NCBI RefSeq assembly: GCF_029017505.1
Contig: NZ_JAQGEI010000015.1
Location: 1-64,000, forward strand
Length of the DNA stretch: 64,000 nucleotides
DNA from: Sedimenticola hydrogenitrophicus
GTDB taxonomy: Bacteria; Pseudomonadota; Gammaproteobacteria; Chromatiales; Chromatiaceae
Direction: 5' to 3'
Position 1 is the stretch's first letter. Each line of letters opens with the position of its first letter. This document shows, piece by piece, positions 612-56,560 of the stretch. The notes beneath the pieces are model-generated. The model worked only from the letters and a program-made list of their open reading frames with translations, was not told the origin of the DNA and did no database searches. Both the position numbers and the translations under genes were made by a program.

Positions 612-1259
612 TTACCTCCTCAGACAGACCGCCAGAAAACCACCCCAGGGGATTTGCCGGGGTAGCCAGGTCTCGGCAATGCGGGCGAAGCGGTCGCCCC
701 GTGGCAGGAAGATGGCGCTGCCCATACTGACCGCGACGGGGCTGGGGGTAAGCCGGGGTATCCACTCCTCTCTTATCGCTTTCGCGCTGTCCCAGCGGGC
801 ACCCCGGTAAGCGCCCCGGCCCTGTTTTTCCCGATACAGCAAGCTGTGCCGGTTGAGCAGGCCGAGCACCACGGCATGGCGGGTAACCCGCCACATCTCC
901 CGCAGGGCGACGACCGGGTCATCCACGAAACAGAGACTGGTGACGGCGCTGCTGTAGTCGAACTGGTTATCGGCAAACGGCAGTGCCCGGCCGTCACCCC
1001 GCAGGTAGGTGATGTCGCCGTCCTCGCCCGCCGCGTAGGCAAGTGCCAGAGAGTCCGGATCGAGACCGCTGACCTCCAGGCCCAGCCCGGCAAACCGGCG
1101 GCTGAAGTGGCCGGTCCCGCAGCCCACATCAAGGAGTGACGCGCCGACGACCGGGTTCAGCAGGTCACCCAGCAGCGTGAACTCCCGGTCACCGATCCAG
1201 CGCCCGCGCGGGGTGTGATACCACGCCTCGTAGGCCGCCGGATCGGTGATGCTGTGCAT
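612..1259 (-). CDS. class I SAM-dependent methyltransferase
   Basis: 215-residue protein with the class I methyltransferase signature. Motif I is LLDVGCGTGHF at about residues 41-51, an acidic residue follows the second strand (SGLDPDS), and a motif II-like DNQFDYSSAVTSLCFV comes near residues 97-112. This is the UbiE/BioC-like Methyltransf_11 fold. The substrate cannot be read from the sequence. The ATG at 1259 lies 6 bases after the stop of the upstream hydrolase gene, so the two are probably co-transcribed and translationally coupled. Confidence 0.85.
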   Translation of the reverse strand: MHSITDPAAYEAWYHTPRGRWIGDREFTLLGDLLNPVVGASLLDVGCGTGHFSRRFAGLGLEVSGLDPDSLALAYAAGEDGDITYLRGDGRALPFADNQFDYSSAVTSLCFVDDPVVALREMWRVTRHAVVLGLLNRHSLLYREKQGRGAYRGARWDSAKAIREEWIPRLTPSPVAVSMGSAIFLPRGDRFARIAETWLPRQIPWGGFLAVCLRR

Positions 1260-1265
1260 GGCCGG

Positions 1266-2147
1266 TTACTCGTTGATGAACTCGATGGCGCGCTCCACCA
1301 AATCCTCGGCGTAGAGGTCACGGAAGGAGTGGTCGGCGCCGTCCAGCACCTCCAGTTCGATGGTACCGGCCTCCGCCATGGGGGCCAGTGTCTTGTCCAG
1401 CCCCTTGACCACCTGATCCTCGGTGCCGGCGAACACCAGCACCGGCTGGCTGATCCCGGGCAGCAGGTAAGGGGTATCCTGGCGCGGCTCCGGGGCATAG
1501 TAGGAGACGAAGGCCTCGGCGGTGACGCTGGTCCCCTTGCAGTAGATGAAATCGGTCTGCTCCATCGGCATCTTCGACTGGCCGGCGGAGACCAGGGCCT
1601 GGGCCGACGCCAGCACCGGCGCCAACGGCTTGGCGTAACGCTTTTCATACTCCTCGGCGGCGTATTCCGGACTCCAGGTCTGCGGCGCGACCAGGATCAC
1701 CTTTTTGACCACCGGGTCGCCCTGTCCGGCGGCAAACCAGGCAGTCTGGTTGCCGCCCCGGGAGTGGCCCAGCAGCACCACCTGTTGCGCCCCTTGGCGT
1801 TTCAGCCACTCCAGCCAGAGCCCGATCTCGGTGACCGCATCCGCATGCTTGTGGGCGTGGGGTGTGGCGCACTCGTAGGGACCCTGCCGGTCATTCAGGC
1901 CCAGGCCCAGGTTGATCGCCAGGGAACTCAGGCCGTTTTCCTGAAACAGCGTCTGCAGGGCGGTGATGATTTCGCTCTGGTTGTGCGACAGCGTACCGTG
2001 GGTGATGAGGATCACCGGTCCGGCGGGCCAGTTTTCGGTCTTTTCAAGACGGGCATTCAGGGTCAGGCCGGCGTCGCTCAGGGTCACCTCCGCGGCCTGG
2101 GCCTGAGCAAGAAACAGTACGGCTATCAGAAGAATATAACGGGTCAC
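1266..2147 (-). CDS. secreted alpha/beta hydrolase
   Basis: 293-residue alpha/beta-hydrolase fold protein with a signal peptide (MTRYILLIAVLFLAQAQA), so it is probably periplasmic. The oxyanion-region ILITHG motif lies near residue 47, the nucleophile elbow GHSRGG near residue 128, and a late Asp (VLDGADHSF) includes the likely catalytic His. The GTG start at 2147 has AGAGGT upstream. It could be a carboxylesterase or dienelactone-hydrolase-like enzyme; the substrate is unknown. It is followed directly by the methyltransferase gene. The 267 bases upstream hold two inverted-repeat elements. Confidence 0.8.
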   Translation of the reverse strand: MTRYILLIAVLFLAQAQAAEVTLSDAGLTLNARLEKTENWPAGPVILITHGTLSHNQSEIITALQTLFQENGLSSLAINLGLGLNDRQGPYECATPHAHKHADAVTEIGLWLEWLKRQGAQQVVLLGHSRGGNQTAWFAAGQGDPVVKKVILVAPQTWSPEYAAEEYEKRYAKPLAPVLASAQALVSAGQSKMPMEQTDFIYCKGTSVTAEAFVSYYAPEPRQDTPYLLPGISQPVLVFAGTEDQVVKGLDKTLAPMAEAGTIELEVLDGADHSFRDLYAEDLVERAIEFINE

Positions 2148-2826: not shown

Positions 2827-3999
2827 TTAATCCAGCGCCTGTTGCAGGTCGGCGATCAGGTCGCCGGCATCCTCCAGCCCCACCGAGAGGCGCACCATGG
2901 CACCGCTGATGCCGCGGCGCGCGCGTTCATCCTCGCTCAGGCCGTGGTGAGTGGTGGTCACCGGCTGGGTCACCAGGCTCTCCACCCCGCCCAGGCTGGC
3001 GGCAATGGAGAACAGCTTGAGCCGGTCCACCACCGCAGCCGTTCCGGCCGTGTCGGCATCGATCTCAAGGGTGAGCATGCCGCCAAAGCCGCTCATCTGG
3101 CGGGCGGCGAGTTCGTGGCCGGGGAAATCGCCCAGACCGGGGTAGAGCACGCGGCGAATGCGCGGGTGGCGCGTCATGGCGTCGGCGATGGCCTGGGCCG
3201 TGGCGTTCTGCTGGCGCACCCGCACCACCAGGGTGCGCAGGCTGCGGGCCAACTGGCTGCAGGTCTCCGGCGCCGGCATCGAGCCCAGGTTCTTGCGCCA
3301 GCCCCAGATCGGATCGAGCAGCGCCTTCGACGCCATCAGCGCACCGGCGGTGAGGTCGCTGTGACCGCCCAGGTACTTGGTGGCGCTGTGCACCGCGAAA
3401 TCGGCGCCCAGCGCCAGCGGCTGCTGGTTGACCGGTGAGGCGAAGGTATTGTCCACCGCCAGCAGGGCGCCGTGGGCGTGCACCTGTTCCGCGATCGCGG
3501 CGATATCGAACAGCTCCAGGGCCGGATTGGTGGGTGTCTCCAGGAACACCAGGCGCGCACCCGCCGCCAGCAGCCCGTCCAGGCGATCCAGTTCGGAGCC
3601 GAGGATCAGGTGGGTCGGGATGCCCAGCAGCGGCAACTGCTCGGCGATCAGCTCCAGGGTGCCGCCGTAGGCGTCGCCGATACAGACGATCCCTTGCCGG
3701 CCATGGGCCAGGAACAGGGCCGCCTCCGCCGCCATGCCGGAGGCGAAGGCAAAGGCCGCTTCCGCCCCCTCCAGGCTGGCCAGTTTCGCCTCCAGCGCCT
3801 GGATGGTGGGGTTCAGCCCGTAGCGGGTGTAGAGACTGCCCGCCTGGCGCCCCTCCACCACGTCGAGCAGCGCCGCGGTATTGGCGAACTTGAAGGTTGT
3901 CGTTGCGTAAATCGGGGTGTGCGGACTGCCATGACTATCGGCCAGTTCGCCGGCGTGGACACAGCGGGTGGCGAGTTGTTGTGCTTTTGTTTCGGTCAT
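2827..3999 (-). CDS. PLP-dependent trans-sulfuration enzyme (cystathionine gamma-synthase / methionine gamma-lyase family)
   Basis: 390-residue Cys/Met-metabolism PLP enzyme of normal family length. The substrate-side YTRYGLNPT motif is near residue 60, the cofactor-binding FASGMAA near residue 88, VDNTFASP near residue 180, and the Schiff-base lysine lies in SATKYLGGHSDLTAG around residue 210. The C-terminal LGGVESLVTQP motif is intact. Family members act as cystathionine gamma-synthase, O-succinyl- or O-acetylhomoserine sulfhydrylase, or methionine gamma-lyase; sequence alone does not decide. The ATG overlaps the TlpA stop by 4 bases (ATGA), and AGGGAG gives a ribosome site. Co-location with a thioredoxin-like protein and a cytochrome is unusual for plain methionine synthesis. 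Confidence 0.85.
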   Translation of the reverse strand: MTETKAQQLATRCVHAGELADSHGSPHTPIYATTTFKFANTAALLDVVEGRQAGSLYTRYGLNPTIQALEAKLASLEGAEAAFAFASGMAAEAALFLAHGRQGIVCIGDAYGGTLELIAEQLPLLGIPTHLILGSELDRLDGLLAAGARLVFLETPTNPALELFDIAAIAEQVHAHGALLAVDNTFASPVNQQPLALGADFAVHSATKYLGGHSDLTAGALMASKALLDPIWGWRKNLGSMPAPETCSQLARSLRTLVVRVRQQNATAQAIADAMTRHPRIRRVLYPGLGDFPGHELAARQMSGFGGMLTLEIDADTAGTAAVVDRLKLFSIAASLGGVESLVTQPVTTTHHGLSEDERARRGISGAMVRLSVGLEDAGDLIADLQQALD

Positions 4000-4532
4000 C
4001 GGTCGCTCCCTGAGAGTGGTCTATCGAAAGTAGTGTTCATGTTGCGCAGTTCGAGTACCGGTTGCAGCAATGCCGGATCGTCCCACTCGCGCCCGCCGAT
4101 GGCGCGGTAGACGATGCGTCCCTGCGGATCCACCACGAAGGTGGTAGGCAGGCCCCGGATCGGCCAGGCGCCGCTGACCGAGCCGTCGCTATCGAACAGA
4201 ATGGGGAACTCCACCGGGTAGCTGCCGGTAAACTGGAACACGCTATCCACATCCTCACCGACATTGACAGCCAGCAGCGCCACCCCTTCGGGTTGCAGCC
4301 GCTCCCAGGCGCGCTGCATGGAGGGCATCTCCTCGCGGCAGGGCGGGCACCAGGTGGCCCAGAAGTTGACGATGACCGGCCGGCCGCGCAGATCGGCGAG
4401 GCGAACAGCGTTGCCGTCCAGGTCCTGCAGGGTGAAGTCAGGGGCCATCGGCCGCGCCTCGACCGGGGTCAGGGTCTGCGCCGCCGTGGCGGTGAGCGGC
4501 AGCAGCAGTACGGCAAGCAGCAGGCGGCGCAT
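3996..4532 (-). CDS. TlpA/ResA-type periplasmic thioredoxin-like protein
   Basis: 178-residue protein with a signal peptide (MRRLLLAVLLLPLTATAA) followed by an AhpC/TSA-Redoxin-type thioredoxin fold. The redox motif WCPPC has its cysteines at residues 62 and 65, and the cis-proline region is GLPTTFVVD. The start at 4532 is preferred over an upstream ATG at 4550 because the Shine-Dalgarno AAAGGAGA lies inside that extension. Family members reduce periplasmic cysteines, for instance apocytochrome c haem-binding cysteines, which fits the pentahaem cytochrome two genes upstream. It overlaps the next gene by 4 bases. Confidence 0.88.
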   Translation of the reverse strand: MRRLLLAVLLLPLTATAAQTLTPVEARPMAPDFTLQDLDGNAVRLADLRGRPVIVNFWATWCPPCREEMPSMQRAWERLQPEGVALLAVNVGEDVDSVFQFTGSYPVEFPILFDSDGSVSGAWPIRGLPTTFVVDPQGRIVYRAIGGREWDDPALLQPVLELRNMNTTFDRPLSGSDR

Positions 4533-4546
4533 CAGGTTCTCTCCTT

Positions 4547-5122
4547 TCATAATTGACGATCAGGGGCGCACCGCATCCCCGCAAAACGCAGATGCCGCGC
4601 TGTGTTGGCTTGCCGCCAGTCGACTTCAAGATCAAAGCTGGCGCCCGGCTCGAGGTTGAAGGTCACCATGCCCATGTTCCAGTCACCGGGTTGAAAGCGC
4701 TGCCGGGTCGGAAACAGCGACCAGCGAAAGGCGACACGGGCCGGTTGGGCTACCTCCAGCCGTTGCCACTCCTGTTGCCAGTCGGCCTCCAGCCGCAACG
4801 GCCGGGGGCTCCCCCGCGCCGGCATCACCCGCCAGCCGGACAAGTCCAACTCAATGGGGGCGTCGGCGTCGTTGCGGACGACGGCCTGGAAGACGCAGGC
4901 CAGGGCCACGGCTTCCGCCTCCCCGGGCCGGAACCCCCGACCCTGAAAATAGGCGCGGGACTGGTCCGGCAGGCGCTGGTTGAAGCTGAACGAGGCGCCG
5001 CCAACCCGCCAGGACCAGCTCTCCAGGCCCGTCTCCGGATCGCGGGCGTGCTCGACGCCGGCTTGCGCGGAGGCGCCGAACAGGAGCAGTCCGAGCACAG
5101 CGCCAATAGCGTGGTTCGCCAT
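4547..5122 (-). CDS. secreted hypothetical protein of a cytochrome operon
   Basis: 191-residue protein with a signal peptide (MANHAIGAVLGLLLFGASAQA) and a mature part that looks all-beta, with Trp- and Arg-rich strands (WRVMPARGSPRPLRLEADW, WNMGMVTFNLEPGASFDLEVDW). The reading frame is open much further upstream, but the GGGAGAA ribosome site and the signal peptide fix the start at 5122. No family is recognised. It lies 28 bases after the pentahaem cytochrome gene and 14 bases before TlpA, so it is probably a periplasmic partner of that system. Confidence 0.7.
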   Translation of the reverse strand: MANHAIGAVLGLLLFGASAQAGVEHARDPETGLESWSWRVGGASFSFNQRLPDQSRAYFQGRGFRPGEAEAVALACVFQAVVRNDADAPIELDLSGWRVMPARGSPRPLRLEADWQQEWQRLEVAQPARVAFRWSLFPTRQRFQPGDWNMGMVTFNLEPGASFDLEVDWRQANTARHLRFAGMRCAPDRQL

Positions 5123-5150
5123 AGAATTCTCCCTTGCGGCCGCGCTGCGA

Positions 5151-6359
5151 TCAGCCCGCCCGCGGGTCGCCGAGGGGCAGGCGCTTGCGGTATATCTCGT
5201 AGGTGGTGGGCTCCTCGCTCTGGTAACCGATGCGTTTGAGCCGCGCCTCCTCAACCAGCCCATAGCGCACCACCGCCTCGGCGGTCCAGGCGCGGTCGAG
5301 TGCCGCGCCGCTAAATTTGAACTCCTCGCTGCGCGGACGCCCCGGCGGCAGCCGGGTGTCCCAGAGATCGACAATGAACGGCCGCCACATGACCGTCCGT
5401 TTCAGTACTTTCTCCTCCTCGGCCAGTACCGCGCCATCCTGGTCCAGCAGCCGCACGCTGAGGACGAAATGCCGGTCCGGGGTGCCGGTGGGCACATAGT
5501 GGGCAGCGCCGACGTTGGTGATGGTCAGGCGGTAGCGGTCCGATTTGCCGCTCATCCGTTCGAAGCCGACCTCCACGGCCTTGCGCACCATCTCCGGATC
5601 ATGGCCGCCGCGCCACACATGCTGCCGCGTCAGCCTCGGCTCGCCGCCGGCCACCAGCGGACGCTCCACCGCCGGCATGTGGCACTCGACGCAGCCCAGG
5701 GTGGCCGGATCGACCTGTTCCAGATCCCCGGTGTAGGTCGACGGCTCGCCCCCGCCGGTACGGATTTCGGCGACCGTGCCACAGGGCGGAAAGCGGAAGA
5801 AGGTGTCCCAACGCTCGCCACCCACCAGATGACATTGTATGCACACCTGGTTGCCGCTGCTGATTTGCCGCACCGGGTGGGCATCGCTTTCGCTGCCGTA
5901 CGGGCCGAGAATCTGTCCCTCGCGCAGGTGGCAGGCGGCGCAGGTGACACCCTGGTGTTGCAGGCCAGGGTCAAAATCCGGATTCGGCGCCAGGATCGGG
6001 TCCCACTTTTCCTCATCGCGAAAACCGAGCACCCGATGCTCCTGCTGCCGGTCCAGGGGGGTGTGGCAGTTCTTGCAGACCTGCTGGCTGCCGTCGAATT
6101 GCCAGTCCGCCTGGAAATAGGGGTCGGTCCACGCCTGGCTGTGCATGCTGGTGCGCCACTCCTCATAAAATGCCGCATGGCATTCGCCGCAGCTCTCCGC
6201 CTTGAGGTCACCAAGCACGGCGGGCGCCGCGCTGGTATCCACGGGCCGCTCGAAGGCGGGAGCGACCACGAAGATGTTCAGCGGGCGCACGAAGCGCCAG
6301 CCCAGGAAGGCGGCCAGCGCCAACAGGACAGCGCCGAGGATGATGGTCTTTCGCTTCAT
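5151..6359 (-). CDS. membrane-anchored pentahaem cytochrome c (c554-like)
   Basis: 402-residue protein with an N-terminal membrane anchor (IILGAVLLALAAFLGWRFV) and five CxxCH haem c motifs: CGECH, CKNCH, CAACH, CIQCH and CVECH. Extra histidines (MHSQAW, HVWRGGH) could be distal ligands. The arrangement resembles the cytochrome c-554 family of periplasmic electron carriers, and the last 150 residues form a beta-rich domain without haem motifs. It is first in a probable operon with a secreted protein, TlpA-type thioredoxin and PLP enzyme. Redox partners are not evident. The upstream 262 bases are full of palindromic repeats, and no clear promoter was seen. Confidence 0.85.
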   Translation of the reverse strand: MKRKTIILGAVLLALAAFLGWRFVRPLNIFVVAPAFERPVDTSAAPAVLGDLKAESCGECHAAFYEEWRTSMHSQAWTDPYFQADWQFDGSQQVCKNCHTPLDRQQEHRVLGFRDEEKWDPILAPNPDFDPGLQHQGVTCAACHLREGQILGPYGSESDAHPVRQISSGNQVCIQCHLVGGERWDTFFRFPPCGTVAEIRTGGGEPSTYTGDLEQVDPATLGCVECHMPAVERPLVAGGEPRLTRQHVWRGGHDPEMVRKAVEVGFERMSGKSDRYRLTITNVGAAHYVPTGTPDRHFVLSVRLLDQDGAVLAEEEKVLKRTVMWRPFIVDLWDTRLPPGRPRSEEFKFSGAALDRAWTAEAVVRYGLVEEARLKRIGYQSEEPTTYEIYRKRLPLGDPRAG

Positions 6360-6621: not shown

Positions 6622-7890
6622 TCAAAAGGCATAACGCAGGGTCATGTAGACGTTGTCGTTATCCCCCAGAACGCCGAACTGGCCGCTGCGATCGCCCACC
6701 ACCAGGTTCGCCCCGACCTCGCCCCACAGGGCGTCGCTGAAGGCGTAGCGGGCGGATGGGATGAGGTAGCCGTCCCCCTCGCTGATGCCCCAGAAGGCGA
6801 ACAGGCTCAGGCGCAGGGTCTGGTGCATCTGGAACCGGGTGAGGCGCAGGGTCGCCACGCCGCGCAGCTCGTCGCGTTCGGGCTGCCCCGCCGGCAGGGT
6901 GCGCCGGTAGGCGGCGTGGTCGTGCATCCACTCCACATAGCCCTGCACCCCGAGGGTGGTGTCGGCGCCGATCTGGCGGCTGTAGCCGGCCAGCAGCCGC
7001 GTCTGGCTGTTCCCGATAGCGGGATCGTTGCCGTCACGATCATCGACCGAGTCGTAATAGCCTGCCTCCAGGCTGAGCACGCCGCTGCCCAGCGGACCCG
7101 AGAGGCTCGCGCCGACGGCGTTGAGGCGCGGAAACCCGCCTTGCCACCCGGCTCCCACTTGGCGTAACGCCGGGGCGCGGTAGTGGGTGCGGGAGAGATA
7201 CAACGCCCCGTCCCAACTGCCGACGTAGCGCGAGACCCGCAACCCGACCTCCAGCCCCGACGGCTCGTCCAGCTCGGCCTGGATCGCCTGGCCCGGGAGG
7301 ACGAAACGCTCCCGGTCCGGCAGGCGGTCCGGGCGAAAGTCGGCCAGCACCAGTTGCACATCGGCAAAGTCCGGGAACAGGTCGAGGCGCATCGCGTCGC
7401 TGCCGCGTTTCAGATACTCCAGCGGCAGGCCGCCGTAGAAGGCCGTCCAGTCCTTGGGGAAGGTGTCGTTGATGAACAGCAGGTCCGCCACCCCCCAGGT
7501 GACCACCTGACGGCCAGCGCGGACACTGTAGCGATCAGCATTGTAGTCGGCGTACAGCTCACGGACATCCGCCTCTGATTCGCCCAGTGCGGCGTCGTGC
7601 AACAGGTCGATCTTGCCGGCATAGCCCAGCGCCCCTGCAAAACCGCCGCCTTCCGCCTTGAGTTGCAGGCGCTGCTCATTGAAGGGCAAGTCGCAGGCGG
7701 TTCCCGGATCACAGTCCACGCCACCGAGGCGCGCCGCCCCGTGGGCCTGAAGGAAGCCGTGGATTTCAGGTATCTCCAGGGGGGGCGCCTCCGCCGCGCC
7801 GGCGGGAAGCCCCGCGCCCCAGGCCAGGACACCCGCCAGGGCGAAGTGAAGGATGGATGGCGTTTGCCTGGTAAGTGCCGGGCTAACCAC
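6622..7890 (-). CDS. outer-membrane beta-barrel protein
   Basis: 422 residues from a GTG at 7890, which gives a signal peptide (TPSILHFALAGVLAWGAGLPAGAAEA) followed by a barrel rich in alternating hydrophobic strands. It ends in YMTLRYAF, the aromatic-terminal signature recognised by the BAM complex. The frame stays open back to an ATG at 8049 that overlaps the LolA-like stop as ATGA, so a longer coupled form is possible, but those extra 53 codons run through an inverted repeat and look non-coding in character. It is the last gene of an exporter cluster and probably the outer-membrane component. The substrate is unknown. Confidence 0.75.
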   Translation of the reverse strand: MVSPALTRQTPSILHFALAGVLAWGAGLPAGAAEAPPLEIPEIHGFLQAHGAARLGGVDCDPGTACDLPFNEQRLQLKAEGGGFAGALGYAGKIDLLHDAALGESEADVRELYADYNADRYSVRAGRQVVTWGVADLLFINDTFPKDWTAFYGGLPLEYLKRGSDAMRLDLFPDFADVQLVLADFRPDRLPDRERFVLPGQAIQAELDEPSGLEVGLRVSRYVGSWDGALYLSRTHYRAPALRQVGAGWQGGFPRLNAVGASLSGPLGSGVLSLEAGYYDSVDDRDGNDPAIGNSQTRLLAGYSRQIGADTTLGVQGYVEWMHDHAAYRRTLPAGQPERDELRGVATLRLTRFQMHQTLRLSLFAFWGISEGDGYLIPSARYAFSDALWGEVGANLVVGDRSGQFGVLGDNDNVYMTLRYAF

Positions 7891-7894
7891 GCAT

Positions 7895-7999
7895 GTGGGC
7901 GCGTTACCCCCGGCAGAGGGCGTCTGCGGCCATGGATGGCCGCAGCGAGCCCCCAGGGATGGGTTTACGGCGTCCCTCTGCCGGGGGTAACACACCCAC
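7895..7999. repeat. nested inverted repeat between LolA-like and barrel genes
   Basis: Arms at 7895-7920 and 7974-7999 (core TTACCCCCGGCAGAGGG with its complement) enclose a second palindrome (TGCGGCCATGGATGGCCGCA) at 7925-7944. It is a dispersed-type repeat and lies between the coupled start at 8049 and the more likely start at 7890 of the barrel gene. Confidence 0.75.
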
Positions 8000-8045
8000 T
8001 TCCGGACTATTCCAGGGTGGTTGACCAGATGTTTGCATTCCCGGC

Positions 8046-8846
8046 TCATCGTATCCACTGCCGTGGTGGGCGTTGCAGATAGCGCTCGCTGAACAGGTCA
8101 TCGTTAAGCCCGACGCCGTAGTTTATCTCGTCATACACCACCTCGGTGTGGTGGCCGCTCTGGGCGTCACGCATGGTACGCTGGGTGACGGTCCAGTGGC
8201 CGTCCACCTCGCGCACCGCGTCGGCGGTGAAGGTGCGCAGCAGCTCGCCGCGGCCGTCGTAGTACTCCTCCTTGAGCGGCAGCCAGCGCTCCCGGTCGAC
8301 CCAGGAGAGGCGGCGCACGTAGTCCGCCTTGGCCTTCGGCACGCTCTCGATCCGGTAGACCGGCCGGCCATCCAGATCCGTCTCATCCAGCAGACTGTGG
8401 CTCTCGTCGCCTACCTCGCGGCCCGAGACGTCCTCGTAGGTGAAGTCCGAGCCGACGAAGGAGGAGCGCTTGTCATCGGCGGCGATGCGTCTGACCAGCT
8501 TGATGGCCGGGATGAAGATCCAGCGGTCATCCTCCCGGGCCGGGTATTTCCACACCATGAAGGTGGTGCCCTTCACGTCGGCCGGTTCGTGAAAGTAGAT
8601 GTAGTAGCGCTGCTCGCCCGCGCCGCCCAGGTCCTTGCGCAGCAGGGTCATTACCCGCCGGCGCTCCTTGCCCTGGGGATTGACCAGCCGCATGGTGGCC
8701 CGGGTACGCTGGTCGTCTCCGGAGTAGTAGAAGGTTTCCAGGGAGCGGGCGATGATGTCGTCGGCGCCGGGTTGCGCCTGTACGCTGGCCGCCGAAACGA
8801 GGGCCAAGGTCAGGATCAGCGCCAGGAATGAGCTAAGAAATTTCAT
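8046..8846 (-). CDS. LolA-like outer-membrane lipoprotein-sorting protein
   Basis: 266 residues. A signal peptide (MKFLSSFLALILTLALVSAASVQA) precedes a LolA/LolB-like half-barrel of the COG2834 type: ADDIIARSLETFYYSGDDQRTRATMRL, WKYPAREDDRWIFIPAIKLVRRI and FVGSDFTYEDVSGREV are typical. The start at 8846 was chosen over GTG 8849 because AAGGAGA is then 7 bases away. Proteins of this type regularly accompany MMPL/RND exporters and are thought to carry a hydrophobic substrate across the periplasm. That role here is inferred from context: the RND gene ends 13 bases upstream and the barrel gene follows. Confidence 0.85.
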   Translation of the reverse strand: MKFLSSFLALILTLALVSAASVQAQPGADDIIARSLETFYYSGDDQRTRATMRLVNPQGKERRRVMTLLRKDLGGAGEQRYYIYFHEPADVKGTTFMVWKYPAREDDRWIFIPAIKLVRRIAADDKRSSFVGSDFTYEDVSGREVGDESHSLLDETDLDGRPVYRIESVPKAKADYVRRLSWVDRERWLPLKEEYYDGRGELLRTFTADAVREVDGHWTVTQRTMRDAQSGHHTEVVYDEINYGVGLNDDLFSERYLQRPPRQWIR

Positions 8847-8859
8847 CACGATATCTCCT

Positions 8860-11172
8860 TCAGGCGGTCGCCGGCTGCTGCCGCCAGAGCCGGCCGTGGG
8901 TCAGTTTCAACAGTCCCGGCAACAGCCCCAGGGCGGTGAGGCCGGAAAACAGCATCAGCAGGGCGAAGAACACCCCCACCGTCTTGTAGGGGCCGAGCGG
9001 CGAGAACATCATCGGCGAGAAGCCCACGGCAATCACCCAGGCGTTGCGCGCGATGGCACGGGCGGTCTCGCCGAACACCACGCCGTTGGTTGCCGCCAGA
9101 TCCCCGCCGAGGCGCGACAGATTGAGCCGGTAACGCTGGATGAAGTGGATGGCGAAATCGATGGAGAGCCCCAGGGTCAGGGCCGAGCAGACCGCCATGG
9201 GCATGTCGTACTCCTTGCCCACGAAGGCGGCCAGGCCATAGGAGAGGGTGATGGCGAAGACCAGCGGCAGCATGGAGAGCAGCGCCAGCACTGGGGAGCG
9301 GAACAGCAGCAGCATCATGGCGAATACCGCCAGGAAGCCCCCCAGCACCGCGTTCATCATCCCCACCACCATCTCGTCCTGCCACACCTTGTTGATATAG
9401 GTGAGGCCCGACCACTCCACCTGGATACCCGGCGGTGGCGGCTCCACGCGCAGCTGGTCGTCTATCAGCGCCACCACCCGCGCCATCTCCCGGTTGTCGC
9501 CGGCGCGCATCTGTACCCAGATGTTGGCGGTGCGGTAGTCATAATCGACAAAGTTGTCCAGGTCCCCGGCATCCCCGGCGGTCTCGTACAGGAACAGGTA
9601 CTGGGCCAGTTCGTCGGTCTCGCCCGGGAGTTGCCGGGACTGCGGATCGGCATCGTGAACCACATAGTTCACCTGCTTGATGACATCCGCCAGGGAGGAG
9701 GTCTTGCCCACCTCGGGATCGGACTCCAGCACCCGCTGCAGTTTCTCGATGTAGCGCATCACCTCGGGCCGCTTCATGGCGCCCTCGGCATCGCCCTGGA
9801 TCAGCAGGTAGGCCATGTAGGTGCCGCCGAACTGGCGGTTCATCACCCGGTCGGCAATGCGGATATCGTGACTCTCGGGGAACCAGGCCACCGGGTTGTC
9901 GTTGACCACGGTACGCGACACCCCCCAGAAGCCCAGGCCCAGCACCAGGGCGGAGATCAGCGCCACCGGCACGGCGCGGCCGAAGGCGAAACCACCGAAG
10001 CCGCGCAGCACTGCGCCGAGACGCCCGCCCTCGTGGTCCAGGGCGCCGATGGCCCTCTGCAGGCGCTCCTCCTTGATCAGCATGATCGAGGCGGGGACCA
10101 GGGTGAGGGTAAGCAGCAGGGCGGCCAGGATACCGATGGCGACGAAGGCGCCGAACACCTGTACCGGCGGGATGTCGGCCAGCAACAGCGAGGCAAAGCC
10201 GGCGGCCGAGGTCAGGGAGGTGTAGAGCATCGGGGTGTAGAGCTCCTCGATGCTCTCGCGCAGGGCCGCGCGCCGGTCCCCGAGGCGCGGATAGCGGTCG
10301 TAGAAGTCACTCAGGATATGGACCGAGTCGAGCACGGCGATGGGCATCAGGAACACCGGGATCATGCTGGACATGATATGCACCGTGTAGCCCATGCCGA
10401 TCAGCAGCCCCATGCCCCAGACCACGGTGAGCATGGCCACGCCCATCACCGGCAGCACCAGGGTGAACTTGCGGAAGACAAACCACAGCAGCAGGAACAA
10501 CACGCCGCCACTGGCCGGCGAGACGATAGCCATCTGGCTGAACATCTCAATGCCGAAGCTGTCCTCGGCGATCGGTAGCCCCGCCAGATGGTAGTCCTGT
10601 TGTGAGTCGAGTTCCTCATCCAGGATGGCGCGCAGCTCACCGCCGATGCGCGCCGCCTGGTCCTTGCGCTCGATCGGGATGTAGACCGCCAGTGCGGTAC
10701 CGTCGGCGGAGGCCAACTTGTCGCTGAACAGCGGATTGTCGGCGATGGCGGCGCGTAGCGCCGCGATCTCCGCCGCGTCATCCGGGACCGCCTGCATCAG
10801 CGGGCGCACCTCCAGCAGCCCGCCCTTTGAGCGCACGTCGTCGCTGGTAGTGAGGCTGATCACATCCGCGGTGATCACCCCCTTGAGCCCCAGCAGCCGA
10901 TCCACCACCCGCGCCACCCGGGCCAGCGGGTCGGGCCGGAACATCCCCGCCTCGTCGGTGATGCCGAGCACGATCAGGTCGTTGATGCCGAAGTCCTGCT
11001 TGGCGCGGTTGTAGAGCACCCGGTCGGCCTGATCGACGGGCAGCATGTTCTCGGGATCCGTGTCGATGTGGATCTTCGGAAACTGGATACCAAAGAGAAG
11101 GGTCGCCAGCAAAACAAGACCGATGGTGGCCTTTGGAAAGTCCATCGATAACCAGATGAGCCGTTTAAGCAT
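8860..11172 (-). CDS. RND/MMPL-family exporter
   Basis: 770-residue inner-membrane protein with the RND layout. There is one N-terminal membrane helix, a periplasmic loop, helices in about residues 200-420 (GGVLFLLLWFVFRKF, VMGVAMLTVVWGMGLLIGMGY, MIPVFLMPIAVLDSVHI), then a second loop and a matching helix block at 600-750. The length matches the HAE2/HAE3-type MMPL exporters that move lipids or other hydrophobic molecules, and is shorter than the roughly 1030-residue drug exporters. The ATG at 11172 follows GGGAG. It is first in a three-gene set with the LolA-like and barrel proteins, which suggests one envelope transport system. The cargo is unknown. Confidence 0.88.
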   Translation of the reverse strand: MLKRLIWLSMDFPKATIGLVLLATLLFGIQFPKIHIDTDPENMLPVDQADRVLYNRAKQDFGINDLIVLGITDEAGMFRPDPLARVARVVDRLLGLKGVITADVISLTTSDDVRSKGGLLEVRPLMQAVPDDAAEIAALRAAIADNPLFSDKLASADGTALAVYIPIERKDQAARIGGELRAILDEELDSQQDYHLAGLPIAEDSFGIEMFSQMAIVSPASGGVLFLLLWFVFRKFTLVLPVMGVAMLTVVWGMGLLIGMGYTVHIMSSMIPVFLMPIAVLDSVHILSDFYDRYPRLGDRRAALRESIEELYTPMLYTSLTSAAGFASLLLADIPPVQVFGAFVAIGILAALLLTLTLVPASIMLIKEERLQRAIGALDHEGGRLGAVLRGFGGFAFGRAVPVALISALVLGLGFWGVSRTVVNDNPVAWFPESHDIRIADRVMNRQFGGTYMAYLLIQGDAEGAMKRPEVMRYIEKLQRVLESDPEVGKTSSLADVIKQVNYVVHDADPQSRQLPGETDELAQYLFLYETAGDAGDLDNFVDYDYRTANIWVQMRAGDNREMARVVALIDDQLRVEPPPPGIQVEWSGLTYINKVWQDEMVVGMMNAVLGGFLAVFAMMLLLFRSPVLALLSMLPLVFAITLSYGLAAFVGKEYDMPMAVCSALTLGLSIDFAIHFIQRYRLNLSRLGGDLAATNGVVFGETARAIARNAWVIAVGFSPMMFSPLGPYKTVGVFFALLMLFSGLTALGLLPGLLKLTHGRLWRQQPATA

Positions 11173-11201: not shown

Positions 11202-11465
11202 GTAACTACTCACGAGGTGATTGGCCTGCCTTGCCGGCGACGTGAACGGATTCACTAATGCCGCGGGGGCAGGGATGCCCAGGAACGGCCTCACACGATG
11301 GCTTGTTTCCTCGAATCCGGCCCAATGGCGCTTACTTAAGGCGAATTGCAGGATTTCCGTCATTCCGGCCTGCGCCGGGATGACGGTGGTTCTTGGCTTA
11401 GGTAAGTGCCATCAAGATCGGCCAACAAGGCAGGCCTATCACTCACAGACCAAGCGAGTAGTTAC
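11202..11465. repeat. 264-bp nested imperfect palindrome
   Basis: Outer arms GTAACTACTC (11202-11211) and GAGTAGTTAC (11456-11465) enclose further inverted pairs: GGCCTGCCTTG with CAAGGCAGGCC, ATGGCGCTTACTTAAG with CTTAGGTAAGTGCCAT, and a core CGTCATTCCGGC/GCCGGGATGACG hairpin. It has no coding potential and occupies almost the whole gap between the exporter start and the DsrE-like gene. It behaves like a MITE or composite REP element. Confidence 0.75.
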
Positions 11466-11487: not shown

Positions 11488-11844
11488 TCAAAACACCAGC
11501 GTCCTGTCGGCGGCCAGGGTGCGCTCCGCCAGCTCCGCCATGGTGCCGCGGCGGGCCCCTTCGATGATCTCCCCGTCGCTCAGGCCGCGGGCGTCCATGC
11601 AGGTCCCGCACAACAGCACCTCGCCCTGGCGGGCCACCGATTGCACCATCAGCTCCAGGTTGTAGTAGCCCTGGGGAACCTTCTGCCCCGCCTTGGCGCA
11701 GGCCACGGCATCGGCCATCAGGAAGATCGAGACCTCGGCCTCCTTGCTGGCCCCCGTTCCAAATAGCGCCTTGGCCAGGCGCAGGCCATTGAAACTGCGC
11801 TCGGTGCCGTAGGGTGGGTCATTGAGTATGATCAGAATCTTCAT
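11488..11844 (-). CDS. DsrE/YchN-like protein
   Basis: 118-residue DsrE-fold protein: MKILIILNDPPYGTERSFNGLRLAKAL at the N-terminus, and the conserved cysteine region LLCGTCMDARGL around residues 77-88. In the family this Cys can carry persulfide sulfur (TusD/DsrE type) or serve in small oligomeric YchN-like proteins. The start at 11844 has CGGAGAT upstream; the longer open frame before it overlaps the TVP38 gene and is rejected. It is third in a row after the sterol desaturase-like and TVP38-rhodanese genes, which supports a sulfur-transfer context. Confidence 0.85.
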   Translation of the reverse strand: MKILIILNDPPYGTERSFNGLRLAKALFGTGASKEAEVSIFLMADAVACAKAGQKVPQGYYNLELMVQSVARQGEVLLCGTCMDARGLSDGEIIEGARRGTMAELAERTLAADRTLVF

Positions 11845-11890
11845 TTGTAAATCTCCGGTAATAAAAGGGGCATCATCGGAATTCCCTGGA

Positions 11891-12910
11891 TTATTCGGTT
11901 GCCTGAGCCGTGCTTTGCGACGGTGCCGTGCTTTGCATCGGCGCAGCGGTATGTACCGGCAACGCCGCCTTGTGCCACTCGGCCATGCCACCAGCCACCA
12001 CATGCACCTCGGCAAAACCCTCGCCGGCAAGGATTTGGGCGGCCTTTTTGGAGCGCCGATCGGTGGTGCAGATCAGCGCGACCGGCTGTTCCTGGTAATC
12101 GGCAAGCTCGGTCAGACGCGCTTCCAGCGCTTCTAATGGGATATTGCGGGAGCCGGCGATGTGGCCCATCTCGCCCCGGTAGTCGGCCTCGCTGCGCACA
12201 TCCAGCAACAGCAGCGGTTCGCCCTTCTCCAGGCGGTCGTTCAATTCGTTGATGCCCAGGGTCGGACCCTGCCGCAGGCGGCCGATAATCCGCGGCAGAA
12301 AGGCCACGATGGCCAGCAGCGCCAGCGCCATCAGGCCCTTCTGGATCAACCCCTCGCCACCGGCCAGCGCCTCGCGCCCGGCGTAGCCCAGCCAGGTGTA
12401 GGCCAGGGCGCCCGGCAGCATGCACAGGTAGGTGGCGACCAGGTAGTGGAGCAGGCGGATACGGGTGAGACCCAGGGCATAGTTGAGCAGATTGAATGGG
12501 AACAGCGGCACCAGGCGCACGAAGGCGACAAAGCGCCAACCCTCCTGCTCGACGCCCGCCTTGAGTTGCCCGAGCCGGCCCGCGGCCTTGTGTTCCACCC
12601 AGTGCGAGGCCAGGTGGCGCGACAGCAGGAACGCCAGCAGCGCCCCCAGGGTGGCGCCGGTGAGGTTCACGAAGGTGCCCACCACCGGCCCGAACAGGGC
12701 GCCGCCGGCCAGGGTCAGCATGGAACCAGGCAGAAACAACACCGTGGCAATGGCATAGATCGCCATGAACAGCAGCGGCGCGGCAGCCCCCGCCCCGCCG
12801 ACCCACTGCTCCAGGGCGGCGGTGTTGAAGCGGTCCCGGTAGAGGATGGCCAGGGCGATACCCGCCGCCAACAAAAGGAACAATGCCAGACGTGTGAATT
12901 GCTGTTTCAT
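11891..12910 (-). CDS. TVP38/TMEM64 membrane protein fused to rhodanese domain
   Basis: 339 residues. The first 220 are a TVP38/DedA-like (SNARE-associated) membrane domain: hydrophobic segments LALFLLLAAGIALAILY and PLLFMAIYAIATVLFLPG, the GALFGPVVGT motif, and FVRLVPLFPFNLLNYALGLT. Residues about 230-320 are a rhodanese domain (LLLLDVRSEADYRGEMGHIAGSRN) with active loop ICTTDRRS, so the catalytic Cys is present. The start at 12910 has GGAAGAG; an alternative ATG at 12979 directly abuts the upstream stop. The C-terminus is a Gln/Thr/Ser-rich tail. It probably couples membrane transport or lipid handling to sulfane sulfur. Confidence 0.85.
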   Translation of the reverse strand: MKQQFTRLALFLLLAAGIALAILYRDRFNTAALEQWVGGAGAAAPLLFMAIYAIATVLFLPGSMLTLAGGALFGPVVGTFVNLTGATLGALLAFLLSRHLASHWVEHKAAGRLGQLKAGVEQEGWRFVAFVRLVPLFPFNLLNYALGLTRIRLLHYLVATYLCMLPGALAYTWLGYAGREALAGGEGLIQKGLMALALLAIVAFLPRIIGRLRQGPTLGINELNDRLEKGEPLLLLDVRSEADYRGEMGHIAGSRNIPLEALEARLTELADYQEQPVALICTTDRRSKKAAQILAGEGFAEVHVVAGGMAEWHKAALPVHTAAPMQSTAPSQSTAQATE

Positions 12911-12979
12911 ACTGCTCTTCCCGCGACCGCGGGCTGGCCCGGCGGCGTCAATAGGTGGGACTGATTTTTCGGTATCCAT

Positions 12980-13822
12980 CTACCAGCGTCGGTTGATGGT
13001 GTATTCGCCCAGCTGGCGGACAAACGGCAGCATCAGCATGCCGGGGAGCCGGTCCACCTGCTTCGGGTCGCGAAGATCGGCCAGGCCGATCTCCATCGCC
13101 ACATGGCCCTCCGGCGGCTGCGCCACGTAGGTGCCGAACAGCCGGTCCCACCAGGGCAGGTTGAAACCGAAGTTGGAGTTGGTCAGCGGGGCGTGCACCG
13201 AGTGGTGCACCCGGTGCATGTCAGGGGTGACCACGAACAGCCGCAGCACCCGGTCGATCCGCTCCGGGATGCGGATGTTACCGTGGTTGAACATGGCGGT
13301 GGCGTTGAGCAGCACCTCGAAGATCACCACCGCCAGCACCGGCGGTCCCAGCACCAGGATGGCGGCGAACTTGATCAGCATGGAGAGGATGATCTCCAGG
13401 GGATGAAAGCGCGCCCCGGTGGTGAGGTCATAGTCGAGGTCGGCGTGGTGCACCCGGTGCAGGCGCCAGAGCAGGGGGATGGCGTGCACCATCACGTGCT
13501 GCAGCCAGATCACGAAATCCAGTGCCACCACGGCGATGACCACCGTGAACAGATCGGGCAGCCGGTACAGATTGAGCAGCCCCCAGCCGCGTTGTTCGGC
13601 CAGGGCGGCGACGCCCACAGCCGCGGCCGGAAACAGCAGCCGCAGCACCACGCTGTTGAGCACCACCAGTCCCAGGTTGCTGGTCCAGCGGACTCCCCGG
13701 GAGAGCATGAGGGCACGGCGCGGCACCAGCACCTCCCAGAGCGCTACGGCGGCAAAGATGCCGAAGAAGAAACTCAGCCGTATGCCAACCTCGTTGGCGA
13801 GAATCCAGTCATGCCAGTTCAT
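12980..13822 (-). CDS. sterol desaturase / fatty acid hydroxylase family protein
   Basis: 280-residue integral membrane di-iron hydroxylase. Several hydrophobic helices flank the histidine clusters HVMVH (about residue 110), HRVHH (about 121) and HRVHHS (about 206), the conserved eight-His metal site of the FA_hydroxylase superfamily. The substrate may be a lipid or fatty acid. The ATG at 13822 has GGAGGAAAG upstream. It is first in the leftward operon leading to TVP38-rhodanese and DsrE, and is divergent from the ArsR-rhodanese regulator across a 93-base promoter region. Confidence 0.85.
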   Translation of the reverse strand: MNWHDWILANEVGIRLSFFFGIFAAVALWEVLVPRRALMLSRGVRWTSNLGLVVLNSVVLRLLFPAAAVGVAALAEQRGWGLLNLYRLPDLFTVVIAVVALDFVIWLQHVMVHAIPLLWRLHRVHHADLDYDLTTGARFHPLEIILSMLIKFAAILVLGPPVLAVVIFEVLLNATAMFNHGNIRIPERIDRVLRLFVVTPDMHRVHHSVHAPLTNSNFGFNLPWWDRLFGTYVAQPPEGHVAMEIGLADLRDPKQVDRLPGMLMLPFVRQLGEYTINRRW

Positions 13823-13849
13823 TTGCCACTTTCCTCCGCTGCCTCATCT

Positions 13850-13893
13850 GTTATAATTTTGATTGATCTGCTATTCAATAGATTACTTGAATA
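13850..13893. promoter_or_regulatory. divergent promoter with operator-like dyad
   Basis: TATTCAA (13872-13878), 8 bases, then TTGAATA (13887-13893) form a perfect dyad in the intergenic region. On the minus strand TTGAAT (13878-13873) and TATAAC (13855-13850) are separated by 17 bases and make a plausible sigma-70 promoter for the desaturase operon, with its -35 inside the dyad. Another ATTGAAT copy follows at 13894. ArsR-family repressors bind AT-rich dyads of this kind, so the adjacent ArsR-rhodanese protein is the obvious candidate regulator. Confidence 0.6.
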
Positions 13894-13915
13894 ATTGAAT
13901 ACCAAGGACCGAGCC

Positions 13916-14578
13916 ATGTCAACCGCCAATTTCAAACACGATCTGTTCAGTCAGTTTGCGCGTATCGCCAAGGCATTAGGCAATGGTTACCGGTTGGAGC
14001 TGTTAGAGTTCCTGGATCAGGGGGAGCGCAGTGTCGATGCCCTGGCCCAGGTTTCCGGTCTCAGCGTGGCCAACACCTCTCAGCATCTGCAGCAACTTCG
14101 ACAGACGGGGCTGGTCTCCAGCCGCAAGGAGGGGCAAAAGGTCTTTTACCGACTGAGTGGCCCGGACGTATCGGCCCTGCTCAGCTCTCTGAGGGGGGTC
14201 GCCGAACGTCACCTGGCCGACGTCAACCGGCTGGTCGACGACTACCTCAAGGTCAAGGACAGCCTGGAACCGATCCCCGCAAACCAACTGCTGGAGCGCG
14301 CCCGCGCGGGGCTGGTGACGGTGCTGGATGTACGGCCGCCGGAGGAGTACGCCGCCGGACATCTGCCGGGGGCGATCAATATTCCACTGAAGGATCTGGA
14401 AAAACACCTGGATGAACTCCCCCCCTCCCGGGAGGTTGTCGCCTACTGTCGCGGTCCCCATTGCGTGCTGGCGTTCGAGGCGGTGTCCCGGCTGCGCCAG
14501 CAAGGTATGAATGCCCGGCGCCTGGAGGGGGGACTGCCGGAGTGGCGCATGGAGGGCCTGCCGGTGGAGCGGGCCTGA
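13916..14578 (+). CDS. ArsR-family HTH regulator fused to rhodanese domain
   Basis: 220 residues. Residues 1-95 are an ArsR/SmtB winged helix (FARIAKALGNGYRLELLEFL, SVANTSQHLQQLRQTGLVSS, GQKVFYRLSG). Residues about 115-215 are a rhodanese domain (LVTVLDVRPPEEYAAGHLPGAINI) with catalytic loop VVAYCRGPHC. The HTH domain has no cysteine, so any sulfur sensing would go through the rhodanese Cys. The ATG at 13916 has AAGGA upstream and is preferred to 13895. It is divergent from three genes that include another rhodanese fusion and a DsrE-like protein, which points to a persulfide-responsive local regulator. Confidence 0.88.
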   Translation: MSTANFKHDLFSQFARIAKALGNGYRLELLEFLDQGERSVDALAQVSGLSVANTSQHLQQLRQTGLVSSRKEGQKVFYRLSGPDVSALLSSLRGVAERHLADVNRLVDDYLKVKDSLEPIPANQLLERARAGLVTVLDVRPPEEYAAGHLPGAINIPLKDLEKHLDELPPSREVVAYCRGPHCVLAFEAVSRLRQQGMNARRLEGGLPEWRMEGLPVERA

Positions 14579-16080: not shown

Positions 16081-16081
16081 G

Positions 16082-16261
16082 AACTCAATTTCGGAGTTCA
16101 CAAGGCGTCGTTCAGGGCGGGCTATCCCCTTTCCGGGACCGTCGGAGGCAGGGATGCCGACGCGAGCTTACAGGGACGTATTCACAGCGTGTCCCGGAAA
16201 GGGGGTGGCCCACCCGGCGCCTGAAACTGAACTCCGGCAACTGAACTCCAAACCTTGAGTT
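16082..16261. repeat. nested inverted repeat between kinase and regulator genes
   Basis: Inner arms at 16115-16139 and 16191-16215 (core CCCCTTTCCGGGAC / GTCCCGGAAAGGGG) lie inside an outer pair AACTCAA...GGAGTTCA with TGAACTCC...TTGAGTT. The loop carries a GCAGGGATGCC-GGACGTATTCAC sequence common in dispersed gammaproteobacterial repeats. It starts right after the kinase stop codon and may uncouple expression of the two partners. Confidence 0.7.
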
Positions 16262-16271
16262 GAGAAAACCC

Positions 16272-17648
<1,377 letters not shown>

Positions 17649-17650
17649 CA

Positions 17651-17672
17651 ACTGTTATCGGATCGTAACAGT
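17651..17672. promoter_or_regulatory. dyad, candidate upstream activator site for the NtrC-like regulator
   Basis: ACTGTTA, 8 bases, TAACAGT form a perfect inverted repeat, with a further overlapping TAACA at 17646-17650. It lies about 75-97 bases upstream of the -24 element at 17747, the usual distance for a sigma-54 enhancer. No T-run follows, so it is less like a terminator. Confidence 0.55.
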
Positions 17673-17746
17673 CACCGGTCCGGGCGCCTTTTTATTACCC
17701 TCCGTTAGTTGTTGTTTTTATGCGCTTTTCCCGCTTTTCTCCGGTT

Positions 17747-17762
17747 TGGCACGGGGTTTGTA
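17747..17762 (+). promoter_or_regulatory. sigma-54-type -24/-12 promoter
   Basis: TGGCACG at 17747-17753, 4 bases, then TTGTA at 17758-17762. This matches the TGGCACG-N4-TTGC pattern except T for C in the -12 dinucleotide, and the GG-to-GT spacing is the required 10 bases. It sits 40 bases before the start codon of the EB_dh-type cytochrome gene and just downstream of an NtrC-family regulator gene. Confidence 0.7.
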
Positions 17763-17802
17763 ACGCCTCTACCGTGCCTATCGCACTCTTGGAGGAGAGT
17801 AA

Positions 17803-56218: not shown

Positions 56219-56560
56219 ATGAACGATCAAGGCCAACCACCTCTGGAATATGAAGACACCACGCTGACGGCCAATGCCCTCAAGGCGATGGCCCATCCGC
56301 TGCGCTGGAAGATTCTCTGCTCCCTGGGCGATGACGAGTTGTCGGTGGGCGAGATCGTGGAGCGCACCGGCACCTCCCAGAGCAATATCTCGCAACACCT
56401 GGAGCAGCTGCGCAACAAGCATATCGTGGTCGCAAGGAAAGAGGCCAACCGCATCTATTACCGGATTCGTAACGGCCAGTTGCTGACCCTGATCGGCACC
56501 ATGCGCAGCGTGCTCTGTCCGGCCAATCTGGACGAGCGCTATTCCGGGGACAAGGAGTAA
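56219..56560 (+). CDS. ArsR-family regulator with SqrR/BigR-type cysteine pair
   Basis: 113 residues, a single ArsR/SmtB winged helix: ALKAMAHPLRWKILCSLGDDELSVGEIVERTGTSQSNISQHLEQL and the wing IVVARKEANRIYYRI. Its only cysteines are Cys34 (WKILCSL) and Cys100 (SVLCPA), 66 residues apart. That is the spacing and helical placement of the sulfane-sulfur-sensing cysteines in SqrR (Cys41/Cys107) and BigR (Cys42/Cys108). No metal-binding CVC motif is present. It stands 19 bases after the RR-PAS gene. Its targets are not evident in the neighbourhood. Confidence 0.85.
   Translation: MNDQGQPPLEYEDTTLTANALKAMAHPLRWKILCSLGDDELSVGEIVERTGTSQSNISQHLEQLRNKHIVVARKEANRIYYRIRNGQLLTLIGTMRSVLCPANLDERYSGDKE

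Follow-up and report, generated by a model that had tools for sequence, protein, structure and literature searches.

The 64,000-nucleotide stretch of Sedimenticola hydrogenitrophicus DNA considered here (contig NZ_JAQGEI010000015.1 of assembly GCF_029017505.1, positions 1 to 64,000; hereafter the window) contains a divergent four-gene core with a rhodanese fusion on each of its arms. On the forward strand, 13916..14578 encodes a regulator of 220 residues, counted from a conserved ATG (227 if an upstream TTG, at 13895, is the start), in which an ArsR-type helix-turn-helix (Pfam HTH_5, 34.8 bits, cut-off 22) is fused to a rhodanese domain (67.7 bits, cut-off 22.2). This protein, hereafter ArsR-Rhd, also passes the NCBIfam model NF033788 (79.7 bits, cut-off 55), which stands for the ArsR/SmtB family broadly. 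The reverse-strand arm opens with a di-iron membrane protein of the fatty-acid-hydroxylase/sterol-desaturase family (FAH; 12980..13822; FA_hydroxylase PF04116, 95.3 bits, cut-off 31). Its stop codon abuts the start codon of a fusion of a VTT domain (89.3 bits, cut-off 33.9) to a rhodanese (63.0 bits) at 11891..12979, for which we assume the name TVP38 (COG0398) and hence write TVP38-Rhd. A DsrE-family protein (11488..11844; PF02635, 79.9 bits, cut-off 22.7) begins 46 nt beyond the TVP38-Rhd stop. Both fusions, as well as a di-iron lipid hydroxylase at the head of the operon, had been proposed in an earlier note made from the letters alone, and the family matches bear these assignments out.

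That note also held that both rhodanese loops keep their catalytic cysteine, and the alignments agree: C178 of the regulator is invariant in 81/81 ArsR-Rhd proteins and C304 of the membrane fusion in 92/92 TVP38-Rhd proteins, the window protein being counted in each set. In TVP38-Rhd, the rhodanese domain is matched by Protein Data Bank (PDB) entries, and the AlphaFold2 model has a mean predicted local distance difference test score of 80; the 50 matches listed, of 284 in the fold search, are rhodanese-type domains and one mitoribosome chain, none of them assignable to the VTT part. In FAH, H109, H113, H122, H125, H126, H140 and H206 are invariant in 105/105 aligned proteins, H180 and H207 are kept in 104 and H203 in 103; we take these conserved histidines to be the iron ligands. 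FAH has no match by sequence among solved structures up to an E-value of 1, and its fold search returned nothing at 0.001 or better, with weak matches to Scs7p at values above 4; identity with OlsE was rejected (NF052566, 79.3 bits against a cut-off of 475). The DsrE-family protein, which the earlier note had called a DsrE-like sulfur carrier, does belong to that family but is YchN-like rather than TusD: it aligns with YchN (PDB 1jx7), its closest solved structure by sequence, over residues 2-118 of 118 (E 4e-23) and scores 30.1 against a cut-off of 89.25 with the TusD model TIGR03012. Its C79 is conserved in 40/41 proteins.

The core recurs across a wide range of genomes. In a set of 274 genomes of the same class, ArsR-Rhd is found (at an E-value of 1e-30) in 78 genomes as 87 copies, and FAH lies divergently within 6 kb of 49; the gap measures 72-220 nt in 48 of these and 2569 nt in one. 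Among these 49 copies, 38 also have TVP38-Rhd and three have only TVP38 besides FAH; a divergent TVP38 without FAH occurs in three further copies out of the 87. This count took in the FAH matches of 107 of the 136 FAH-bearing genomes (those with an E-value of about 1e-80 or better, and seven weaker ones), so that the partner numbers can only be too low. Seen from the other side, 41 of the 46 TVP38-Rhd copies lie near ArsR-Rhd and 44 near FAH, every one being near either. Forty-four genomes encode both TVP38-Rhd and ArsR-Rhd, one TVP38-Rhd alone, 34 ArsR-Rhd alone and 195 neither, a co-occurrence with a Fisher p of 3e-28, which overstates the evidence since the genomes are related. A divergent FAH and/or TVP38 accompanies ArsR-Rhd in 38 families. 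Thus, the conserved neighbourhood across genomes on which the earlier note made its proposal hinge does exist. Among 55 near relatives, 13 have ArsR-Rhd together with a strong TVP38 match, four ArsR-Rhd only, two TVP38 only and 36 neither; in a sample of the phylum, ArsR-Rhd is present in 46/388 genomes and a strong TVP38 match in 36/388.

Neighbours were surveyed by tblastn, with score thresholds of our own setting and within limited flanks, at 180 loci. These comprise 80 named loci (the best 80 of 311 ArsR-rhodanese matches, related to one another), 80 class loci (80 of the 87 copies, namely 34 of the 35 without a partner and 46 of the 52 with one) and 20 out-of-class loci, a non-random sample for frequencies, picked from ArsR-Rhd-positive genomes of which most are also TVP38-positive. 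Genes within loci were called by a longest-open-reading-frame rule. Divergent FAH, TVP38 and YchN genes are present in at least 62/80, 49/80 and 23/80 named loci, these being lower bounds as some contigs stop early; FAH is divergent in 43/80 class loci, and the out-of-class loci have FAH in 13/20 and TVP38 in 17/20. The same core is also found in a second class. Two out-of-class loci (L336, L343) have a single operator ahead of FAH, an octahaem cytochrome resembling hydroxylamine oxidoreductase (HAO), TVP38-Rhd and another multihaem gene, and L340 has a similar set with a TVP38 devoid of rhodanese.

That ArsR-Rhd controls the divergent operon had been claimed from position; to this is now added a conserved operator between the genes. 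The palindrome ATTCAA-N8-TTGAAT (13873..13892), a predicted operator at the regulator's own promoter as judged from sequence, stands 23 nt before the regulator ATG. It is exact in 54/81 regions upstream of ArsR-Rhd and present with at most one mismatch in 70/81, with 68 of these 70 sites lying 15-28 nt ahead of the start; the 11 regions without it are those of L077, L079, L088, L102, L103, L105, L107, L110, L117, L124 and L128, of which L102, L103, L110, L124 and L128 share a different neighbourhood. Conservation in the aligned sites is limited to approximately 25-30 bp between little-conserved flanks; the core columns are conserved through the selection of the set, whereas columns 6, 8-10, -1 and 20 are independent of that selection. 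The exact palindrome is single in the 5.1-Mb genome to which the window belongs, and 1.75 Mb of sequence beyond the 220-nt windows upstream of 160 loci holds four exact copies. An extended form, TATTCAA-N8-TTGAATA, occurs at 41 sites across 39/274 class genomes, against two genomes for a reversed control pattern; 29 of the 41 lie within 300 nt of ArsR-Rhd, and 31/78 genomes with ArsR-Rhd carry it, compared with 8/196 of the remainder. Outside the class, a site with at most one mismatch is present in the divergent region of 14/20 loci, and none in L337, L339, L344, L345, L346 and L351. In one genome (G279), an FAH-TVP38-Rhd operon retains the site even though its ArsR-Rhd is encoded 1.38 Mb away, behind a promoter whose site has one mismatch; in another (G116), an unlinked site stands directly upstream of a TauE/SafE gene (PF01925, 169.5 bits, cut-off 32.6). 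Hence, ArsR-Rhd very probably controls the divergent operon.

One operator half-site may double as the -35 element of FAH: TTGAAT is followed, after 17 nt, by TATAAC on the reverse strand (13850..13878), a possible sigma-70-like promoter. TATAAT-like elements with at most two mismatches are found on the FAH side of 81/115 regions, against 24/115 on the other side; the promoter call is suggestive only, because the region is AT-rich. A regulon search of the own genome at two mismatches, which yielded 152 sites where the reversed pattern gave 33, was unusable because many of the listed sites come from a dispersed repeat. This repeat, with AAACAAGGGCAGGCTTGAAT, has many copies on many contigs of the genome and inflates mismatch counts for the operator.

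The rhodanese loop of the regulator, CRGPHC (C178-RGPH-C183, a CX4C arrangement), points to where a signal might be read. C178 and C183 are both invariant in 81/81 proteins and are the sole cysteines of 57/81, including the window protein, whose ArsR domain has none; a sensing pair is therefore probably located in the rhodanese. The loop departs from standard length, being two residues longer than in TVP38-Rhd and in three more rhodaneses encoded by the own genome; it resembles that of BH2092 (3nhv), and a fourth own-genome rhodanese (Pfam Rhodanese 47.9 bits) has the same longer loop. Sulfane-sulfur repressors of the BigR/SqrR type carry two conserved cysteines inside the ArsR domain, which the window protein lacks, and the curated BigR model NF040642 scores it at 42.4 bits against a cut-off of 155. 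Thus, ArsR-Rhd may act like BigR/SqrR yet falls outside that subfamily by both features tested. The same genome encodes a second ArsR protein with cysteines in its ArsR domain (L002, L358; G000:C23:16758-17018), presumably at the BigR positions, which may be a BigR/SqrR-type sensor. A further ArsR-like match in the window (56270-56512) is 35% identical to the regulator's DNA-binding domain.

The four genes of the core lie within 11488-14578, the interval given in the earlier note, but the unit does not appear to end at 11488. Beyond a 315-nt gap with an imperfect 28-nt hairpin (11358..11385), found once in the window, the reverse strand continues with an MMPL/HAE3-like RND transporter (8860..11172), a LolA-like (PF17131) periplasmic carrier (8046..8849) and a DUF1302-like outer-membrane barrel (6622..8058; Pfam 24.2 bits, cut-off 23.2), all probable extensions of the operon with Pfam matches, and a C554-like multihaem cytochrome c recognised by Pfam (5151..6359). 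The order is identical to that in S. selenatireducens (L356: FAH, TVP38-Rhd, YchN, MMPL, LolA-like, barrel, C554-like), where the YchN-MMPL gap is 51 nt; the MMPL, LolA-like and barrel genes also follow in L057 (with C554), L082 and L233 and were not found in the other 177 of the 180 loci. Given this shared order in L356, L057, L082 and L233, the operon probably runs on to about 5151, with co-transcription predicted from few loci. Relatives of the C554-like gene are divergent from ArsR-Rhd in 6/80 named, 11/80 class and 0/20 out-of-class loci.

The reverse-strand genes beyond it, down to 612, are weaker and uncertain candidates for the operon. A protein without Pfam or NCBIfam match (4547..5374), whose true start is probably inside the open reading frame, is found in the ArsR-Rhd locus, on either side, in 10/80 named and 1/80 class loci, and a TlpA/ResA-like thiol-disulfide protein of uncertain membership (3996..4550) travels with it. 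For a cysteine/methionine-metabolism PLP enzyme (2827..3999), found in 4/160 loci on any side, the case for membership is weak; that of an alpha/beta hydrolase (1266..2147; divergent strand of 7/80 named and 3/80 class loci) and of a methyltransferase (612..1259; 11/80 named, 5/80 class) is uncertain. Downstream of the regulator, 14737-19128 encodes a histidine kinase, an NtrC-type response regulator and an ethylbenzene-dehydrogenase-family haem protein; these look unrelated, since none reached the score thresholds in the 180 loci, where weaker two-component matches exist.

In relatives, the core is followed by other redox proteins, namely a NapH-like/GltD-like reductase, an HAO-like octahaem cytochrome and a pentahaem cytochrome. 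HAO-like genes lie divergently in 17/80 named, 5/80 class and 16/20 out-of-class loci, and NapH/GltD-like genes do so in 20/80, 6/80 and 16/20. Multihaem genes (at least four CxxCH motifs, within 7 kb) are on the divergent strand in 21/80 named loci, and in 13/44 class loci with FAH against 2/36 without; none is co-directional downstream, and in the named set three upstream and one downstream are on opposite strands. Genes with sulfur functions appear as well: type-III-SQR-like genes near 7/160 loci (two named, five class, on the divergent or co-directional side), TauE near 15/160 on any side (divergent in seven named and five class loci), and ETHE1/PDO-like MBL genes near 7/160, six of these being class loci with the gene on the divergent or co-directional side. 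The name PDO for the MBL genes is our assumption from their motifs; in NCBIfam they have only a sub-threshold GloB match. In L188, L189, L193 and L195, where the ArsR-rhodanese is a more distant copy, an MBL-fold (ETHE1/PDO-like) gene and an MFS transporter come next on its strand and may form a second type of target operon.

Taken together, the best reading of these observations, on which our confidence is evenly poised, is a membrane module under ArsR-Rhd that is derepressed by sulfane sulfur. A dimeric ArsR-Rhd repressor would sit on ATTCAA-N8-TTGAAT between its own gene and FAH, blocking both promoters. As sulfane sulfur rises (persulfide, polysulfide or thiosulfate-derived), C178 would take up a sulfur atom and C183 would close a disulfide or polysulfide bridge with it, a change that would reach the winged helix and free the DNA. 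From the derepressed operon, TVP38-Rhd might hold or move sulfane sulfur at the inner membrane through C304, with the YchN-like protein as a relay, while electrons might pass via multihaem cytochromes, the C554-like protein here and the HAO-like octahaem protein with the NapH/GltD-like reductase in relatives. A lipid hydroxylated and exported by the di-iron FAH together with the MMPL, LolA-like and barrel proteins could adapt the envelope. The evidence is stronger for the regulatory half of this scheme than for the effectors. The architecture, the invariant cysteines and histidines, the palindrome and the co-occurrence are direct observations; sulfane sulfur as the signal, repression, the C178-C183 bridge and the parts played by TVP38-Rhd, YchN, the cytochromes and FAH are what we infer from knowledge of the protein families. 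The cysteine-dependent membrane protein YedE1E2 imports sulfane sulfur (PMC10812762); this precedent, together with the lipid scrambling suggested for COG0398 proteins, makes a membrane sulfur role of TVP38-Rhd possible by analogy.

Several observations weigh against the sulfane-sulfur reading. NapH/GltD-like (42/180) and HAO-like (38/180) genes are commoner neighbours than the SQR-like, TauE and PDO-like genes, each of which is confined to a minority of loci, and would suit nitrogen-oxide or general electron transfer equally; the SQR-like protein itself is below its model cut-off (NF049943, 271.5 bits against 525). ArsS, an arsenosugar protein, is on the divergent side of 23/180 loci. A rhodanese-less TVP38 holds the same place in several loci, so that the second rhodanese is not essential, and COG0398 proteins have been suggested to be phospholipid scramblases (PMC10127716, section 7). 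As for the regulator, 35 of the 87 class copies have neither FAH nor TVP38 divergent within 6 kb, and the operator (at most one mismatch) is absent in 26/43 class loci without an FAH call and 7/36 with one; this tally scored FAH by clustering of open reading frames, which yields 36 loci with FAH against the 43/80 of tblastn, and dropped one locus with too little upstream DNA. Moreover, 8/196 genomes without an ArsR-Rhd match carry the extended site, in one of them (G132) beside FAH at a contig end. Such FAH/TVP38-less copies and operator-less loci imply that the ArsR-Rhd family has other targets or sites. Given a larger unit with cytochromes, a reductase and TauE, SQR or arsenosugar genes, the sulfane-sulfur disposal tied to membrane lipids that the earlier note suggested is only one interpretation among several.

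The strongest competitor, which we nonetheless regard as unlikely, casts the CX4C loop as a general thiol redox or nitrogen-oxide switch (responding to oxygen, nitrite, NO or hydroxylamine), the operon as a multihaem electron-transfer module, and sulfur as incidental. FAH-family enzymes use O2, the HAO-like and NapH/GltD-like genes are frequent on the divergent strand, above all out of class, and the solved relatives of the octahaem protein are hydroxylamine oxidoreductase-like (6t5e, E 6e-56). However, this leaves unaccounted for two separate rhodanese domains with invariant catalytic cysteines beside a YchN/DsrE protein, the SQR-like, TauE and PDO-like neighbours, though these are in a minority of loci, and the unlinked operator at TauE; further, the operon of the window has no recognised HAO-like gene.

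Next in likelihood, and in our judgement also improbable, comes an envelope lipid module, with a FAH-hydroxylated lipid exported by the MMPL, LolA-like and barrel proteins, TVP38 scrambling lipid, and the rhodaneses acting as signal input and regulatory tail only. FAH is indeed the commonest partner in the named and class loci (out of class it is outnumbered by TVP38), the three export genes come next in the window, L057, L082, L233 and L356, and the scramblase proposal for COG0398 (PMC10127716) would fit. Yet within the limited flanks of the survey these export genes are near in just 3/180 loci, and a catalytic cysteine kept in every one of 92 aligned proteins is unexpected of a passive tail.

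It is very unlikely that ArsR-Rhd senses arsenic and governs an operon for arsenosugar or arsenolipid synthesis. ArsS (TIGR04167, 453.3 bits, cut-off 300) is divergent in 13/80 named and 10/80 class loci, in some with a TIGR04283 glycosyltransferase (248.7 bits, cut-off 182), but it is missing from most loci and from all 20 out-of-class ones, and the window protein lacks any cysteine in its ArsR domain with which to bind a metal. CX5R is a phosphatase motif, and a phosphatase-like arsenic loop of that kind was rejected, there being no arginine at C+6. The additional length of the regulator's loop might be invoked in favour, as PMC5525254 ties loops extended by one residue to arsenic or phosphorus. 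In L091, L201, L202, L213 and others, ArsS and the TIGR04283 glycosyltransferase, elsewhere an ArsM-like gene, lie downstream of the divergent genes.

Finally, the notion that these are neighbours by chance or common descent without functional linkage deserves scant credence: while the 80 named loci share ancestry, through which gene order can be kept, chance was rejected on genome co-occurrence and the spread over 38 families, and the 72-220 nt spacing in 48/49 copies, a palindrome conserved between little-conserved flanks, the recurrence in another class and the site kept after relocation of the regulator in G279 speak against both.

Returning to the sulfane-sulfur reading, its regulator is akin to the BigR, SqrR, SoxR and sHdrR repressors in having an ArsR fold and probable dithiol sensing, and genes near regulators of that type include TauE, PDO, rhodanese or SQR (PMC5823870, PMC9774590, PMC10451225, PMC12423496). 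In those proteins the cysteine pair is within the ArsR protein itself (Cys42/108 in BigR, Cys41/107 in SqrR, Cys50/116 in SoxR; PMC5823870, PMC9774590, PMC10451225), whereas a pair of this type, absent from the ArsR domain here, probably sits in the fused rhodanese loop. A polysulfide bridge between the two cysteines abolishes DNA binding by BigR and alters that by SoxR (PMC5823870, PMC10451225). The remark in PMC12423496 that ArsR regulators near sulfur genes may work by other modes fits an ArsR-Rhd with a probable sensing pair outside the ArsR domain. The operon content, with FAH, TVP38-Rhd and multihaem cytochromes, is unlike the targets of these repressors.

The effectors likewise have partial precedents. 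Fusions of COG0398 (TVP38) and COG0586 (DedA) proteins join a VTT protein to a second domain as here: DedA-rhodanese fusions are noted for COG0586 in PMC10127716, section 7 of which gives pyridine nucleotide-disulfide oxidoreductase, not rhodanese, as the commonest COG0398 fusion partner. Unlike these, the present TVP38-rhodanese is bound to one regulator and operator. The own genome also encodes a TVP38-pyridine nucleotide-disulfide oxidoreductase fusion of about 720 residues (L355; G000:C37:41178-42797). E. coli YchN is similar over nearly its full length to the DsrE-family protein, which here is inside a regulated operon with rhodanese fusions; OlsE and Scs7p share with FAH the FA_hydroxylase family and histidine set, despite the sub-cut-off model score and the weak fold match. 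The octahaem cytochromes in relatives of the operon are HAO-like homologues (PF13447, PDB 6t5e), but they score 165.2 with the HDH model against a cut-off of 900 and are linked to rhodanese fusions and an ArsR-Rhd repressor.

Rv0324 is presumably another ArsR-rhodanese fusion. In the open-access literature searched, a scope outside which most subscription papers and all preprints fall, we found no description of the present ArsR-rhodanese regulator or of its pairing with TVP38-rhodanese, which agrees with the view in the earlier note that the assembly is not a described system. The module is real and conserved, and it appears undescribed in the literature searched. More speculatively, we propose, as a tentative extension, that it represents a widespread undescribed regulator class in which the ArsR dithiol has shifted to a rhodanese CX4C loop, making the sulfurtransfer step the signal, and which controls a membrane pathway of sulfane-sulfur electron transfer built of TVP38-rhodanese, YchN, multihaem and lipid-hydroxylase proteins. 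The effector half may yet hold greater novelty.

If correct, this would establish a second sensor design among sulfane-sulfur regulators, and the 20-bp predicted operator and two-cysteine loop bring the system within reach of a test that needs a single protein and a single DNA fragment. It would provide a named operator and regulon for sulfur-oxidising and symbiotic bacteria such as Sedimenticola, Thiodiazotropha and the tubeworm endosymbionts, as well as the first functional handle on the TVP38-rhodanese fusions and their neighbouring HAO-like octahaem cytochromes.

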